From NCBI GenBank assembly GCA_035541755.1, contig DATKMQ010000072.1:1-64000 (forward strand): 64,000 bases of DNA, written 5' to 3'. The notes under the pieces are model-generated. The model had not been told where the DNA came from. It was given only the letters and a program-made list of their open reading frames with translations, and searched no databases. This stretch comes from Syntrophorhabdaceae bacterium. Lineage in GTDB: Bacteria; Desulfobacterota; Syntrophorhabdia; Syntrophorhabdales; Syntrophorhabdaceae. Below, piece after piece: positions 5,450 through 13,980 of this stretch (the stretch's first letter is position 1; each line of letters opens with the position of its first letter). The translations under genes were made by a program, and so were the position numbers.

Positions 5450-6772
5450 ATGAACAACCGTTCAGTAAAATGTAAAAGATTTATCTGGATACTATCATGC
5501 GTTATGGCTGGCGCCCTGTCCGGTCAGGAGAGCGTCCATGCGGAGAAGCTTACCCTCGCAGATGGGGTGAGACTTGTGACGGTTGACAGCAGGGCCGTGA
5601 AGATTGCCGAGCAGGAAGAATCCATATCACAGGCCGATACGCTCATTGCCCGTTCGCTATTGCTGCCTCGAGCGGACGGCCGTTACACTCAGAACTATCA
5701 AGAACTTCAACCTGGCATGATAAACCCTGCCGGGGTGGTCTTCACCGGGGAGAGGAGCTATTACACCTATTCTCTGATTATGCAACAACTCCTCTATGAC
5801 TTTGGAGGAACCATATCGTATTTTCAATCGAACAAGAGAATATACGAGACAAAACAGCTTGAGACCAAAAGGATCAAGAACTATCTGGCGCTCCAGTTTG
5901 CCTCCACCTATTACAATCTCCTTGAATCCGAAAAAATGGTAATAGTCGCAGAGAGAGAAAAAGAGCGGCTGGAAGGCCACCTGTCCAATGCGCAGTCCCT
6001 GTACAAGGAAGGGGTCATTACCAAGAATGATCTTCTTCAGGCCGAGGTGCGCCTCTCCGATGCGAAACAAAAACTGATAACCTCACAAAACCTCCGCAAG
6101 ATCCATCACTCGGAGTTGAACAATCTGCTTGCGCGTCCCCTGACCACGACTATTGAAACCGAGGAAGCGAACGTGGTCCCCGCGACGAGCGTTAATCTGG
6201 AGGAGGCCCAGGGTTCAGCGGAAAAAGACAGATATGAAATGAAGATTGTAGATACCACCCTGGAAGCGGCAAAACTTGAAGAGAGCGGCAAACGAGCTGA
6301 ATACTTTCCGAATTTCTTCCTTCAGGGAAGATATGATTATATGAAAAATAAGTTCGCGCTTCACGAAGGCATGTGGGCTGTGCTCGTGGGCATGAACATC
6401 AATTTCTTAAGCGGGGGCAGCACACAGGCGGGTCTCGCCAAGATAGCGAGCCAGAAGCAAAGGTTGATTGTTGAACGAAGCAAACTGATCGATGATATAA
6501 GGTTCGAAGTGGAGCGATACTACCTCGAAATGGTCGATGCGCAGGAAAAGATGAAGGTCACAAAGGATGCAACCGCCCAGGCGGAAGAGAACCTGAGAAT
6601 CAACAAGGTGAAGTATACGGACGGCGTGGGTACGGCAACGGATGTGATCGACGCGATCACACTTTTATCCGTGGCCGAAACAAATTATTATCGATCGCTT
6701 TATGAATTCAATCGAGCCTACGCGGGGCTCATGTATTCTACCGGACAGGACCTCGTGGGGATCTACAGGTAA
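5450..6772 (+). CDS. TolC-family outer-membrane efflux protein
   Basis: The 440-residue protein starts with a signal peptide (basic n-region, hydrophobic stretch around residues 12-24, A-L-S-G-Q-E-S-V-H-A). The body is alpha-helical with the repeated amphipathic pattern of the outer-membrane efflux family: A-R-S-L-L-L-P, L-Y-K-E-G-V-I-T-K-N-D-L-L-Q-A-E in the first half and R-I-N-K-V-K-Y-T-D-G-V-G-T-A-T-D-V-I-D-A in the second. It should form the trimeric outer-membrane channel of a tripartite pump with the next two genes. Its stop codon overlaps the next start in a TAATG arrangement. Confidence 0.93.
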   Translation: MNNRSVKCKRFIWILSCVMAGALSGQESVHAEKLTLADGVRLVTVDSRAVKIAEQEESISQADTLIARSLLLPRADGRYTQNYQELQPGMINPAGVVFTGERSYYTYSLIMQQLLYDFGGTISYFQSNKRIYETKQLETKRIKNYLALQFASTYYNLLESEKMVIVAEREKERLEGHLSNAQSLYKEGVITKNDLLQAEVRLSDAKQKLITSQNLRKIHHSELNNLLARPLTTTIETEEANVVPATSVNLEEAQGSAEKDRYEMKIVDTTLEAAKLEESGKRAEYFPNFFLQGRYDYMKNKFALHEGMWAVLVGMNINFLSGGSTQAGLAKIASQKQRLIVERSKLIDDIRFEVERYYLEMVDAQEKMKVTKDATAQAEENLRINKVKYTDGVGTATDVIDAITLLSVAETNYYRSLYEFNRAYAGLMYSTGQDLVGIYR

Positions 6773-7866
6773 TGGTGGAACAAATAAAGAAGGCTTTTAA
6801 CGGTCGCAGCAAGACCCCTACCGCGATTCTCTTCCTTGTGATTGCCGTTGTGGTGGTTGTCCTCGTCCTCTTGTATCTGCGTTATCATGCTACGCATATT
6901 TCAACCGACGACGCTTTCGTTGAAGGCAAGATTCATATGATCGCTTCAAAGGTGAGCGGAACAATCAAGGGGATTTCCATACAAGACAACCAGTTTGTGA
7001 AGAAGGACGATCCCTTATTCGAAATTGATCCTGTTGATTATGACGTAAAGGTGAAGGAGGCGCAATCGAGTTACGAGGCGGAAAAGGCCAAATTTACCGA
7101 GACAGCTTACAAGTTAGACGTTGCACGCAAACAGGCGGTTCAGATCGGCGCTGCCATCGAGACGGCAAAAGCCAATAAGGACCTTGCCGAGGCGAACCTC
7201 AAACAGGCAAAGGCCGACATGAAGCGGGCTGAGAACCTGCTCAAAGAAGATGCCATATCCAAAGAGCGGTATGAAAAAACCAGAACAGCCCTTGATGTGA
7301 GCGAGGCGCAGCTCAAAGCGGCGCTTGAGCGCACAAAGGAATTGGAGGCCTCGCTTCAAACACAGCTTTCGCTCGTCAAACAGAACGACGCCGGGCTTGC
7401 TGCCCAGAGGGCCGTGGTGGAAACCAAGAAAGCAACCATGGAGAGCGCTCAACTTAACCGGGGATACACGAAGATCCTCGCTCCCGCCGATGGGTACGTC
7501 ACCAGGAAGGCCGTTGAGATCGGAAACCAGATTGTGGTGGGACAGCCGCTCTGCGCCATCGTTCCCCTGGAGGACATCTGGATTGTGGCGAACTTTAAAG
7601 AGACGCAGGTCGCCAAAATAAAGGTCGGTCAGAAGGTGGACTTCAAGGTCGATACCTATTCGGGAAGAACGTTTCGAGGCAGTGTGGACAGCATCATGGC
7701 CGGAACAGGGGCAAGCTTCTCGCTCTTTCCCCCGGAAAATGCCACAGGTAACTATGTGAAGGTAGTCCAGAGGATTCCTATCAAAATTATCCTCGATAAG
7801 GGTACGGACAAGGATCACGTCCTAAGACTCGGCATGTCCGTGCAACCCACCGTCATAGCAGAATAA
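6772..7866 (+). CDS. EmrA/HlyD-type periplasmic adaptor (membrane fusion protein)
   Basis: The 364-residue protein has one N-terminal membrane anchor (residues about 18-36), then R-Y-H-A-T-H-I-S-T-D-D-A-F-V-E-G, the conserved start of EmrA-type adaptors. A biotinyl-lipoyl-like half motif, a long coiled-coil hairpin (about residues 90-225) and the second lipoyl half (Y-T-K-I-L-A-P-A-D-G-Y-V) follow, then a beta-barrel region. It should bridge the MFS transporter and the TolC-like channel. It overlaps the upstream gene by one base and lies 7 nt before the transporter. Confidence 0.93.
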   Translation: MVEQIKKAFNGRSKTPTAILFLVIAVVVVVLVLLYLRYHATHISTDDAFVEGKIHMIASKVSGTIKGISIQDNQFVKKDDPLFEIDPVDYDVKVKEAQSSYEAEKAKFTETAYKLDVARKQAVQIGAAIETAKANKDLAEANLKQAKADMKRAENLLKEDAISKERYEKTRTALDVSEAQLKAALERTKELEASLQTQLSLVKQNDAGLAAQRAVVETKKATMESAQLNRGYTKILAPADGYVTRKAVEIGNQIVVGQPLCAIVPLEDIWIVANFKETQVAKIKVGQKVDFKVDTYSGRTFRGSVDSIMAGTGASFSLFPPENATGNYVKVVQRIPIKIILDKGTDKDHVLRLGMSVQPTVIAE

Positions 7867-7873
7867 CGGAATA

Positions 7874-9406
7874 ATGGAAAAGTGGATTATCGCCCTCACT
7901 GTGATGCTCCCGACGCTCATCGAGATAATCGATACATCCGTTGTCAATGTGTCCCTGGATCACATCCGCGGCAGTCTCTCGGCAGGAATTGACGAGTCTA
8001 CCTGGGCCATCACCATGTATCTTGTTTCCAATGCCGTCATCATCCCCATCACGGGGTGGCTGAGTAGGTTCTTCGGGCGAAAGCTCTATCTCCTTATTTC
8101 GATCGCGATCTTCACGATAAGCTCCCTTCTCTGCGGTTTCTCATGGAATATCCAGAGCCTCATCTTCTTCAGGATTTTTCAGGGCTTAGGCGGCGGCGCC
8201 TTGCAGCCGATTTCGCAGTCCATTCTCCTTGAAACGTTTCCGCCGCGGCAACACGGCATAGCCATGGCGTTTTTCGGAATAGGGATCATGTTCGGACCCA
8301 TCGTAGGCCCTGTCATGGGCGGCTGGATCACCGATAATTGGTCGTGGCACTGGATATTCTTTATCAATATCCCGATCGGTATCATTTCGATCATCATGGC
8401 CACGCTCTTTATCAAGGACCCGCCTTATATGGAAAAGACCAAGATGAGAATGGACTACTTCGGGCTCGCACTCGTGGCGTTGGGACTCGGATGTTTGCAG
8501 ATCCTTCTCGATCAGGGGCAGAGAGAAGATTGGTTTGCCTCCGGCCAGGTGAGATGGCTTGCCGCGGTATCGATAATATCGCTTATTCTCCTTGTATTCA
8601 CGGAACTCAGGAAAAAAGAGCCCGTGATCAATCTCAAGCTTTTTAAGGACATCTCGTTTTCTACGGGGAATGCAATCATGTTCTTCATCTTCCTCAGCAT
8701 GTTCTCCACCCTTGTGCTGCTCCCCATCTACCTCCAGACCTTGATGGGATACACGTCAACGCTCGCCGGACTCGCTTTGGGCCCCGGGGGCCTTGCCACC
8801 ATCTTTTCGCTCCTCATTGTGGGCAGACTCGTGACCAAGATAAACCCCAAATACATACTCTTTACCGGACTTTCAATCGTCGCATATTCGGTGTACCTTA
8901 TGGCAAACCTCGACCTCAACGCGAATTTTGCGGCCATCATGTGGCCCAGGGTGGTCCTCGGCCTTGGGATGGGTTTTGTCTTTGTGCCGCTAACGAACCT
9001 TACACTTTCACATATCAGGAAAGAAGATATGGGCGGCGCGACCGCCCTGTTTAACCTCTTGAGAAATCTCGGCGGGAGTTTCGGGGTAGCGATCTTCACA
9101 ACGCTTCTTGCGAGACGGGCGCAATTCCATCAGGTGCGGCTCATAGAGCATCTGACCCCCTTCGACGGGCCGTACCAGTGGACCTTAAGCCACATTCAGC
9201 CCTTTCTCCATCTCAAGGGCATACCGGATGCACTTGTCCCTCAGGGGGCCCTGGGCATCATGTACGGGAACCTCATACGACAGGCAACGATGATCGCCTT
9301 CAACGATACGTTTCACTCTATCTTTATCCTGTTGCTTGTCATTCTGCCGCTTATTTTCCTTTTGAGAAAACCGGAGCGGATGGAAGGCCCTCCGCCCATG
9401 CATTAA
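7874..9406 (+). CDS. EmrB/QacA-type (DHA2) MFS drug transporter
   Basis: The 510-residue integral membrane protein has 14 predicted hydrophobic segments. Near the N-terminus it carries the DHA2 signature D-T-S-V-V-N-V-S-L and motif A-like G-W-L-S-R-F-F-G-R-K; a G-x-x-x-G-P-x-x-G-P-x-x-G-G motif C is also present. Such transporters are proton-coupled exporters of hydrophobic compounds. The last loop (about residues 420-455) contains several histidines. With the adaptor and TolC-like channel it makes a complete EmrAB-TolC-type pump in one operon; the substrate cannot be told from sequence. Confidence 0.94.
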   Translation: MEKWIIALTVMLPTLIEIIDTSVVNVSLDHIRGSLSAGIDESTWAITMYLVSNAVIIPITGWLSRFFGRKLYLLISIAIFTISSLLCGFSWNIQSLIFFRIFQGLGGGALQPISQSILLETFPPRQHGIAMAFFGIGIMFGPIVGPVMGGWITDNWSWHWIFFINIPIGIISIIMATLFIKDPPYMEKTKMRMDYFGLALVALGLGCLQILLDQGQREDWFASGQVRWLAAVSIISLILLVFTELRKKEPVINLKLFKDISFSTGNAIMFFIFLSMFSTLVLLPIYLQTLMGYTSTLAGLALGPGGLATIFSLLIVGRLVTKINPKYILFTGLSIVAYSVYLMANLDLNANFAAIMWPRVVLGLGMGFVFVPLTNLTLSHIRKEDMGGATALFNLLRNLGGSFGVAIFTTLLARRAQFHQVRLIEHLTPFDGPYQWTLSHIQPFLHLKGIPDALVPQGALGIMYGNLIRQATMIAFNDTFHSIFILLLVILPLIFLLRKPERMEGPPPMH

Positions 9407-11666: not shown

Positions 11667-11940
11667 GCCAAATTTTCCTGACCATCACATCTCCAACGCT
11701 CATAAGGATTTGCAGCATATCGGCTGTAATCAAATCCCGCTTGATCTTCTCGAATCGAATGATTTCAAACCGCAATCAAGAGCAGGTCGTCGAATTCCCC
11801 AGCCTGCAATTGAAAAATTGTGCAGGCGGGGACACCGCCTATTGTTTTTCCTGATCGGTGTGCATATGGTCTTGAAAGGAACGCAAGCTTCGGGTGCCGT
11901 GATGACTGTGAGCTCAGTCGATGGCAAAGGAGGGAATGGC

Positions 11941-12648
11941 ATGGATGAAACCGCATTGGTACAAAAGGCTTACACCGCCGTTGTCGAGCACTTTGTGAAG
12001 ACAGGTCGGGCGCCGCATTATACCGAACTCGCAGCCATCCTCGGGGTGTCGCCGGAAGAGGCGAGACAGGCACAGCACAAGGCGGCCGATTCCTCGGTGG
12101 CCTGCTGGTTTGTTAAAGAGACAGACTACGTGGAGTCCTGGGCGCCGTTTTCCAATGTACCCACCCATCATCTTGTGACGATCAAAGGGGAGCAGAAATG
12201 GTACGGCCAGTGAGGACTCGAAGTGCTGGCCGTGCGCTGGCTCTTCCCCGATACCGAGGTCCGTATCGAGACCCGCTGTCTTGACTGCGGGGAACCCATC
12301 ATGATCCGGATGCGAGACGACAAGATCCTCGAAATCAATCCATCAACCGCCGTAGGACATGTGAACATCCCGTTCGCCAGGGTCCTTAAGGGAGATGTAA
12401 CCTGGGGCTCGGCTTGAAGCCGGATGAACCTCTTCCGGTCGGAAGAGCATGTGAAGAAGTGGTCGTCTTATGATCCTGTGTCCGCTGAATCGATCATGCC
12501 CCTGTCGCAGTGGGCGAGCGCGTTTAGCGGGCCCCTGATGAAGAATCGTCTCGCGTCAGATTATCTCTCACGGGCGCACGAGTACGCATCAGAGCTATTC
12601 TTGTCGCTTAAGAAGATGGGTAAGGCGGGCCCGTTCTGGACCCCGTAA
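11941..12648 (+). CDS. MerB-like organomercurial lyase homologue with two predicted selenocysteines (UGA codons 91 and 159)
   Basis: The frame runs 236 codons from ATG 11941 (GGAGG 7-8 nt upstream) to TAA at 12648 if TGA at 12211-12213 and 12415-12417 are read as selenocysteine. The N-terminal region has a winged-helix-like block (Y-T-E-L-A-A-I-L-G-V-S-P-E-E-A). Around the first UGA the sequence is K-W-Y-G-Q-U-G-L-E-V-L-A...L-F-P, aligning with L-Y-A-W-C-A-L-D-T-L-I-F-P of E. coli plasmid MerB (Cys96, Asp99). Around the second it is G-S-A-U-S-R-M-N-L-F-R-S, aligning with the F-C-C-H-V-H-F-F-A-S region (Cys159). Thus both catalytic cysteines would be Sec and Asp99 would be Glu94. MerB cleaves the carbon-mercury bond and hands Hg(II) to a thiol carrier; whether this homologue does so is unknown, and no merA, merR or merT is nearby. 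The alternative, a pseudogene with two nonsense mutations, is unlikely because both hit catalytic codons and the frame is otherwise intact. The 3' end overlaps the convergent peroxidase gene by 88 nt. Confidence 0.85.
12229..12241 (+). promoter_or_regulatory. Possible SECIS hairpin for UGA codon 91 of the MerB-like gene
   Basis: A short GCCG/TGGC stem with loop TGCGC begins 15 nt after the UGA, placing the loop at 19 nt. An alternative AGTGC/GCGCT stem (12222-12238) competes with it. The loop starts UG, consistent with the rule that one of its first two bases is G. It is weaker than the other two candidates. Confidence 0.4.
12430..12447 (+). promoter_or_regulatory. Bacterial SECIS hairpin for UGA codon 159 of the MerB-like gene
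   Basis: CTCTTCC-GGTC-GGAAGAG forms a perfect 7-bp stem with a GGUC loop. The loop starts 19 nt after the UGA, inside the 16-37 nt window described for bacterial SECIS elements, and has the same GGUC core as the E. coli fdhF element bound by SelB. Confidence 0.8.
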
Positions 12649-13754
12649 CGGCCTTGGCTTAACACCTTCGGCTGATCCTTCACCGCGGCGAACCCCGCAT
12701 GTTCCCCATCTGGTGGTAACACGGGCACTCTCAGCGCATCGTCGGGCAGTCTTCCAGTCAAGGATTTTAGGAAGAGAATGATTTCCCCGACCTGTTCGTC
12801 GGTCGGAGATTTGCCCACCTGTATTTTGCCCATAATGAAGACCACATCGCGCAATCCGTCGACCGATCCATCGTGAAAATATGGAGAGGTCATCTCCACG
12901 TTTCGTAACACAGGGACTTTGAACACATACTTATCACTCTCGTTGTTTGTAACGGCATACCTGCCTTCGTCAATATCCTTGCTCCCGGTATATTGCCAGT
13001 AGGGCTCAAATACGCCAAACTTCTGGTACATCTTGCCTCCCACATACGCACCTGAGTGGCAGTTGGTGCAGCCTGTTTCGATGAATGTTTTAAGTCCCTT
13101 TTTCTCTGCGGCGGCAAGCGCGGTCGGATTCCCTTTTACAAAGGCATCGAAACGAGAAGGAGTGACGAGCGTTCTTTCAAAAGCTCCAATGGCTTTGGCC
13201 AGGTTATCAACGTTGACCGGATCTTTTTCCCCGGGAAAGGCTCTCGCAAACAATGGGGCATACCCTCTTATTTCTTTGAGTCTCTTCTCTACAGCCTCAT
13301 AGGATGGCATCCCAAAGGAAGGCGGCCCGACCATGGCCTGTTTGGCCTGGTCTTCAACATCCGTTCGGTTTCCTATCCAGTGCGCCGAAATCTGGCCTGC
13401 CGCATTGAAGACGGTAGGGGCGTTTCGGGGATTGATCTTGCAATTATTCCCGATAGATTTCTTCAACCCGTCAGCCGCGTACAAACCAATCGGATGACAT
13501 CGGACACAGCTCACTGTCTGGTCTACAGAAATCCTTGTCTCATAGAAAAGCATTTTCCCCAGAGCGACTTTATCAGCAGTAATAGAGTTATTTGCCGATC
13601 TCATGGTTTTTGGCAAGGGTCCGAAAATCTGTTTTGCCTGGTTTAGCAACGCTTTGTCTCCTGCGCGGGCAGATGTCAAGGCCACTGAAATCAAGATGCA
13701 GAAAATGAAAAAGATCCTTATACTCCGTGCGCGTTTTTTCCTGGTTTTATCCAT
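12561..13754 (-). CDS. Di-heme cytochrome c peroxidase / MauG-family protein
   Basis: The 397-residue protein has a signal peptide (R-I-F-F-I-F-C-I-L-I-S-V-A-L...S-A-R-A) and two heme c motifs, C-V-R-C-H in the first third and C-T-N-C-H in the second. The blocks A-L-G-K-M-L-F-Y-E-T-R and N-A-P-T-V-F-N-A are typical of the CCP/MauG family. It should act in the periplasm, reducing hydrogen peroxide with electrons from cytochromes or oxidising a partner. The ATG at 13754 follows GGAGG by 5 nt. The last 30 or so residues run beyond the usual family end (L-P-V-L-P-P) and are encoded opposite the 3' end of the MerB-like gene. Confidence 0.92.
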   Translation of the reverse strand: MDKTRKKRARSIRIFFIFCILISVALTSARAGDKALLNQAKQIFGPLPKTMRSANNSITADKVALGKMLFYETRISVDQTVSCVRCHPIGLYAADGLKKSIGNNCKINPRNAPTVFNAAGQISAHWIGNRTDVEDQAKQAMVGPPSFGMPSYEAVEKRLKEIRGYAPLFARAFPGEKDPVNVDNLAKAIGAFERTLVTPSRFDAFVKGNPTALAAAEKKGLKTFIETGCTNCHSGAYVGGKMYQKFGVFEPYWQYTGSKDIDEGRYAVTNNESDKYVFKVPVLRNVEMTSPYFHDGSVDGLRDVVFIMGKIQVGKSPTDEQVGEIILFLKSLTGRLPDDALRVPVLPPDGEHAGFAAVKDQPKVLSQGRYGVQNGPALPIFLSDKNSSDAYSCARER

Positions 13755-13980
13755 AACGACCTCCATCGCTACGATTATCGATCGTCTGTCAGGATACTGT
13801 GGACGACTTTGAGAAATAGCTTTATCTACTTATTAAGCAATAATTCACTTTACAGGAAATTCAATAGATTTCAGAATGCAAGCACGGCTACGGACGAAGT
13901 GGACGCGCCTGTTGACTGTGATGCTCATCCAAATGATTTGCACGGTAATTGAGCTTTTAAGCGGTAACGGTCAGCGTGGG

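Follow-up and report, generated by a model that had tools for sequence, protein, structure and literature searches.

The window analysed here, the whole stretch of 64,000 nucleotides, holds a MerB-family reading frame with TGA codons at the positions of both catalytic cysteines. MerB binds the metal through Cys96 and Cys159 and relies on Asp99 to handle the proton (PMC4525700, PMC8261052). The locus therefore raises the question of whether this is a broken gene or one that encodes a protein with selenocysteine (Sec) at both metal-binding positions, as a first-pass annotation had proposed and, if it is the latter, what such a protein would do.

A MerB-family frame with two internal TGA codons

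Translation of 11941-12648 on the forward strand bore out the proposal of one MerB-family frame broken by TGA only, as the sole internal stops are the TGAs at codons 91 and 159 and the frame ends at TAA. The features on which the argument rests are the following.

11926..11934, forward strand: ribosome-binding site, AAAGGAGGG, upstream of the ATG at 11941 (from sequence)
11941..12648, forward strand: double-Sec MerB-family gene, 235 codons plus TAA (Pfam, AlphaFold2, Foldseek)
12211..12213, forward strand: UGA codon 91, Sec at the MerB Cys96 position (homologous loci; alignment with the MerB2 active-site Cys)
12220..12222, forward strand: Glu94 codon at the MerB Asp99 position (Glu in 80/80 loci)
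12225..12241, forward strand: SECIS-type hairpin 1, GCUGGC-CGUGC-GCUGGC, apical loop 20 nt after the UGA (pairs, loop, codon constraint)
12277..12288, forward strand: CLDC motif with Cys113 and Cys116 (conservation; 5c17 alignment)
12415..12417, forward strand: UGA codon 159, Sec at the MerB Cys159 position (UGA in 79/79 homologous loci reaching the position)
12430..12447, forward strand: SECIS-type hairpin 2, CUCUUCC-GGUC-GGAAGAG, apical loop 22 nt after the UGA (codons 164-168 frozen)

With TGA read as Sec, the protein matches the Pfam MerB family (PF03243) over residues 70-191 with E = 1.7e-21, and its 76.9 bits clear the cut-off of 27. In a phmmer alignment with MerB2 (PDB 5c17), its sole sequence match of solved structure, residue 91 falls on the first active-site Cys and residue 159 on the second, confirming the placement of the UGAs at the MerB catalytic cysteines; the annotated spacing of 68 codons and the Glu94 in the place of Asp99 proved equally correct. 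The same alignment matches Cys113 to MerB Cys117 and leaves Cys116 as an extra residue. Cys113 is present in all 81 family rows and Cys116 in 79. On the reverse strand, an ORF for a di-haem cytochrome c peroxidase (CCP_MauG, 12561-13766) overlaps the final 88 bases of the MerB-like gene.

Decoding of the two UGA codons

Both UGAs of this gene almost certainly encode selenocysteine. The window's genome (3.85 Mb, 95.8% complete) encodes tRNA-Sec (selC, 76.3 bits), selA, selB (378 bits) and selD (373 bits), so that all four sel genes whose presence had been put forward as a check lie in the same genome. This selD (L141, G000:C90:12310-13221) itself has one in-frame TGA and probably encodes a selenoprotein too. 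In a phylum sample of 395 genomes, TGA-containing MerB occurs in 35, and selA in 35 of these 35; two genomes, G112 and G135, have a MerB without TGA, and selA was not found in them. As about 90% of the phylum sample has selA, this co-occurrence is supportive and not decisive. Among the genomes of the wider loci, 33 of 37 have selA over cut-off, and the remaining four show selA fragments, weak matches or none.

A search of 99 genomes, the window's own included, found full-length two-TGA homologues in six other genomes and, in a seventh, a homologue that ends with its contig after the first TGA. A scan of one genome per species then gave 117 encoding stretches, and 80 loci were retained. At the Cys96 position 74 of them have TGA and 6 have TGT or TGC, at the Cys159 position TGA stands wherever the locus reaches it (79/79), and both UGAs stand together at these same two positions in 73 of the 80 loci, across phyla; no residue other than Sec or Cys was found at either ligand position in the 80. 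Such repeated occurrence at identical positions, in dozens of genomes of several phyla, excludes chance. By record titles and taxonomy the loci belong to Thermodesulfobacteriota (Desulfobacterota), Chloroflexota, Acidobacteriota, Actinomycetota, Poribacteria, Rokuibacteriota and others, and the double-Sec family spans at least six bacterial phyla, with the reservation that most loci come from metagenome-assembled genomes (MAGs) and individual assignments could be in error. Compared with six relatives, the window gene gives dN/dS of roughly 0.06-0.36 in each of the three segments that the UGAs delimit, where dS could be estimated; the values are rough because dS is near saturation. One family copy (L018, in genome G064) loses its match after about 81 residues and continues as unrelated sequence, and is truncated or broken.

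The first-pass annotation had described a perfect 7-bp hairpin with a GGTC loop after the second UGA. This hairpin is real (12430-12447), and a further one after the first UGA, absent from that annotation, was found in this analysis. Mean folding energy after the two UGAs is only mildly lower (-12.8 and -13.4 kcal/mol) than in control windows (-10.7 kcal/mol); because raw folding energy is weak evidence, synonymous constraint and the loss of the loop in Cys rows were used as the test for SECIS elements. Synonymous diversity at each conserved codon column, compared with the codon usage of the family itself, revealed strong constraint at codons 95-96 and 164-168, weaker constraint at 97-98 and a smaller signal at 160, with values mostly near zero outside the hairpin codons. 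In hairpin 1, Ser95 is TCG in 54/54; in hairpin 2, Leu164 is CTC in 54/54, Phe165 is TTC in 80/80 and Ser167 is TCG in 78/78. All pairs of hairpin 1 and an xGU loop are present in 74 of 75 UGA rows (the window included) versus one of six Cys rows, and in four of those six the loop is altered to xAU. In the sister clade the closing pair of hairpin 2 changes from C-G to U-A, with Arg becoming Trp and TCG becoming TCA, which is a compensatory change.

A decaying pseudogene with two nonsense mutations would also present a frame holding two stops, and the relative L018 does resemble a broken copy. This explanation is nevertheless highly improbable and we reject it, as it is contradicted by the presence of both UGAs in 73 of 80 loci from several phyla, by the low dN/dS after each UGA and by the codon constraint at the hairpins. 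The first-pass annotation had judged a random pseudogene unlikely on the positions of the two codons alone, and UGA recurrence, low dN/dS and hairpin constraint all agree with it. Its further check, that homologues might carry other codons or decayed frames at these positions, returned only UGA or Cys, with purifying selection flanking each UGA; the double-selenocysteine reading is well supported by the sel genes together with the codons and frames of the homologues. Still less credible is a changed genetic code that reassigns UGA to Cys or Trp and makes the protein an ordinary Cys MerB, for which the only support is that the frame opens once UGA is read as sense, and which is rejected since many family genes end at a TGA stop, so that TGA is not reassigned genome-wide, since tRNA-Sec, selA and selB are in the genome, and since hairpins follow both UGAs, the first of them decaying where Cys replaces UGA.

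Fold, phylogeny and known relatives

AlphaFold2, run with a 53-row alignment, modelled the protein with pLDDT 95.5 and pTM 0.90, and all 11 Foldseek matches at E < 0.001 were MerB or MerB2 (best E 1.8e-10). The protein as modelled adopts the MerB fold and places Sec where MerB has Cys96 and Cys159.

The window's clade forms one supported group (100/99) of 34 Sec/Sec and six Cys/Sec members in a maximum-likelihood tree of 65 rows. As the Cys/Sec rows are scattered inside it, the first ligand position has switched more than once; at the Cys159 position Sec was never lost in the loci examined. A second, separate clade of nine (100/100; L145-L152 and L160, from genomes G091, G155, G415, G345, G378, G283, G132, G120 and G095) is also double-Sec, keeps Asp at the Asp99 position (UxxD) and has its own hairpin after each UGA. 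Elsewhere, L108 and L113, which score over the cut-off for SaoL, combine a Cys at the first position with a Sec at the second, and two further proteins, L153 (G387) in a Cys/Cys clade and the more MerB-like L112 (G339), have Sec at the Cys159 position only. That L153 and L112 stand amid Cys/Cys sampled relatives suggests recent gains or losses of Sec. Judged from these alignments, putative Sec at the Cys159 position recurs across the MerB superfamily, and Sec predicted at both ligand positions defines at least two clades.

MerB itself (PF03243; NF033555, PRK13239; PDB 3F2F, 5C17) shares with the window protein the fold and the two metal-ligand positions, which in the latter are 68 residues apart, as well as an acidic residue three after the first ligand and the buried Cys at position 117. 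The window protein differs in having Sec for Cys at both ligands, Glu for Asp99, the extra Cys116 and no mer operon. The MerB signature Cys96/Asp99/Cys159/Cys117 is accordingly not met, as the residues here are Sec/Glu/Sec/Cys, and the NCBIfam MerB equivalogs are not reached (40.4 bits vs 193, and 36.2 vs 200). The best solved-structure sequence match, MerB2 with Ser at 99 (PDB 5C17; 99Ser variants in PMC8261052), illustrates natural variation at position 99, but has Cys at both ligands and Ser at 99 where the window protein has Sec/Sec and Glu.

SaoL, the MerB-like organometallic lyase of the SAO system (NF040728), is also a MerB-fold protein and carries Sec where MerB has Cys159 (as in L108 and L113). 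Its first position is Cys and its single Sec stands in a CU motif (PMC13188914), whereas the window protein has two Sec and an AU motif and lies in a separate clade. Membership in SaoL is rejected on these grounds and on a model score of 46.7 bits against a cut-off of 140. The double selenoproteins MbdU (NF045648, metal-binding) and MduS likewise have two Sec per chain, and some are metal-linked (PMC13188914), but no known double-selenoprotein family in NCBIfam matched the window protein at E up to 1. In a 2026 review of selenoproteins in prokaryotes, the single MerB-like entry is SaoL, with its one Sec (PMC13188914). None of the models in NCBIfam release 20 fits the window protein, and literature text searches, which did not cover the primary SAO papers of 2023 and 2025, did not find a double-Sec MerB. 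Sec-containing MerB-like lyases such as SaoL are thus a kind already known; what is new is the double-Sec variant in a clade of its own.

Genomic context

No mer gene was found among the scanned neighbours in the window, and no merA over cut-off in the window's genome; the candidates for the latter, two flavoprotein disulfide reductases at 345-359 bits, fall under the 454-bit cut-off and were rejected. An operon partner conserved across the double-Sec family was not found either (SAO models were outside the scope of this search), and most family copies stand alone. In Syntrophales-type loci (L057, 10718-15553; L047, L051, L056, L060, L065, L078) the gene is followed by a cluster that encodes C_GCAxxG_C_C redox proteins, iron-sulfur proteins with a CCG domain and an FAD-linked oxidase. 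Members from Chloroflexota and Acidobacteriota carry C-terminal fusions, to an AAA ATPase in three (L030, L031, L033) and to the catalytic domain of a guanylate cyclase in one (L032), which hints at forms with a role in signalling. In the window itself, 5450-9406 on the forward strand encodes an efflux trio of an outer membrane efflux protein, an HlyD-type membrane fusion protein and an MFS transporter.

The window's genome also encodes the corrinoid protein HgcA, a mercury methylator (L167, G000:C110:15829-16794), which scores 435 bits where the cut-off is 275. In the phylum sample, 22 of 35 carriers of TGA-containing MerB have HgcA over cut-off, compared with 92 of the 360 other genomes (p = 1.5e-5). 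The excess is smaller when it is assessed within families (20 observed versus 15.7 expected, z = 2.2); the test was post hoc, and draft genomes and genome size are possible confounders. One double-TGA gene, accompanied by selA, is that of Desulforhabdus sp. TSK (L023), which appears to be an isolate because its record carries no MAG label. Its genome is apparently G330 of the phylum sample, given that the selA matches agree in contig number, coordinates and score class; locus L157 of G330 encodes the same protein as L023, and G330 has HgcA at 440 bits. The organism of the window is thereby also assigned to the phylum Thermodesulfobacteriota.

Possible function

We suggest, with a confidence only somewhat above even, that the protein is a cytosolic organometal lyase of the MerB fold in which both metal-binding cysteines have become selenocysteines, likely serving methylmercury demethylation or detoxification in anaerobes. 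Sec91 and Sec159 would together coordinate, as selenolates, the metal atom of an organometal, with methylmercury the most likely one; Glu94, in the place of Asp99, would pass a proton to the leaving carbon, and a hydrocarbon would be released. As no mercuric reductase partner is encoded nearby, the Cys113/Cys116 CxxC or cellular thiols may help to remove the metal. The role would be methylmercury demethylation or detoxification in anaerobes, some of which may produce the compound themselves via HgcA. An organometal substrate, methylmercury as that substrate, the cleavage of the carbon-metal bond and the exit of the product are all inferred and not shown. We favour catalysis over mere binding because a carboxylate is conserved at the Asp99 position, and an invariant acidic residue there is what would be expected of a protonolysis catalyst (mechanism: PMC4525700). 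Glu is longer than Asp, and its side chain may alter the chemistry, as the first-pass annotation had hinted. The proposal is weakened by the lack of any experiment, of a mer operon, of an operon partner and of a merA over cut-off, by an HgcA link that is post hoc and shrinks within families, and by AAA-ATPase and cyclase fusions that would suit a sensor equally.

Two alternatives keep the double selenoprotein, and each seems to us rather unlikely. The MerB fold may act on a substrate other than mercury, such as an organo-arsenic, -tin, -lead or -selenium compound or an unrecognised natural organometal. The absence of mer genes nearby and the Glu in the Asp99 place are compatible with this, as are the altered metal preferences of MerB2 with Ser at that position (PMC8261052) and the name given to SaoL in 2023, 'Sec-assisted organometallic', which does not fix the substrate. 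Nothing, however, points to any particular other element, and the affinity of selenium for mercury and the co-occurrence with HgcA favour mercury.

It is about as doubtful that the protein is a metal or organometal sensor or scavenger, whose two selenols bind Hg(II) or a similar soft metal tightly without turnover and whose winged-helix-like N-terminal region or fused domains relay a signal. The fusions to AAA ATPase and guanylate cyclase and the solitary state of the majority of copies would fit; yet the invariant acidic residue at the Asp99 position is unneeded for pure binding, the fusions are a small minority, and MerB itself has a similar N-terminal region.

Implications

Selenium binds mercury far more tightly than sulfur does. 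For this reason a Sec/Sec organometal enzyme that achieves turnover, such as the lyase proposed here, would be chemically striking. The natural Sec/Sec, Cys/Sec and Cys/Cys homologues allow one to ask what benefit Sec brings at each ligand position; in the window's family, repeated exchange between Sec and Cys has taken place at the Cys96 position, whereas Sec was never lost at the Cys159 position in the loci examined.

To ordinary gene finders a double-Sec gene appears broken. Surveys for mer genes screen annotated proteins for Cys96/Asp99/Cys159/Cys117 (PMC8261052), and the family would escape them because its genes are fragmented at the UGA codons and the screening relies on that signature. 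Anaerobes such as Desulfovibrio BerOc1 demethylate methylmercury and the responsible gene has not been identified (PMC5255934); the double-Sec gene is one candidate for encoding an as yet unidentified enzyme with which anaerobes might degrade methylmercury. The variant is unusual in its breadth and offers a testable link to anaerobic methylmercury turnover. A more ambitious and quite tentative possibility is that these proteins are a widespread, overlooked di-Sec MerB class that carries out mer-independent methylmercury demethylation in sulfate-reducing, syntrophic and other anaerobes, methylators included. If this is true, the same cell would both make and unmake methylmercury.
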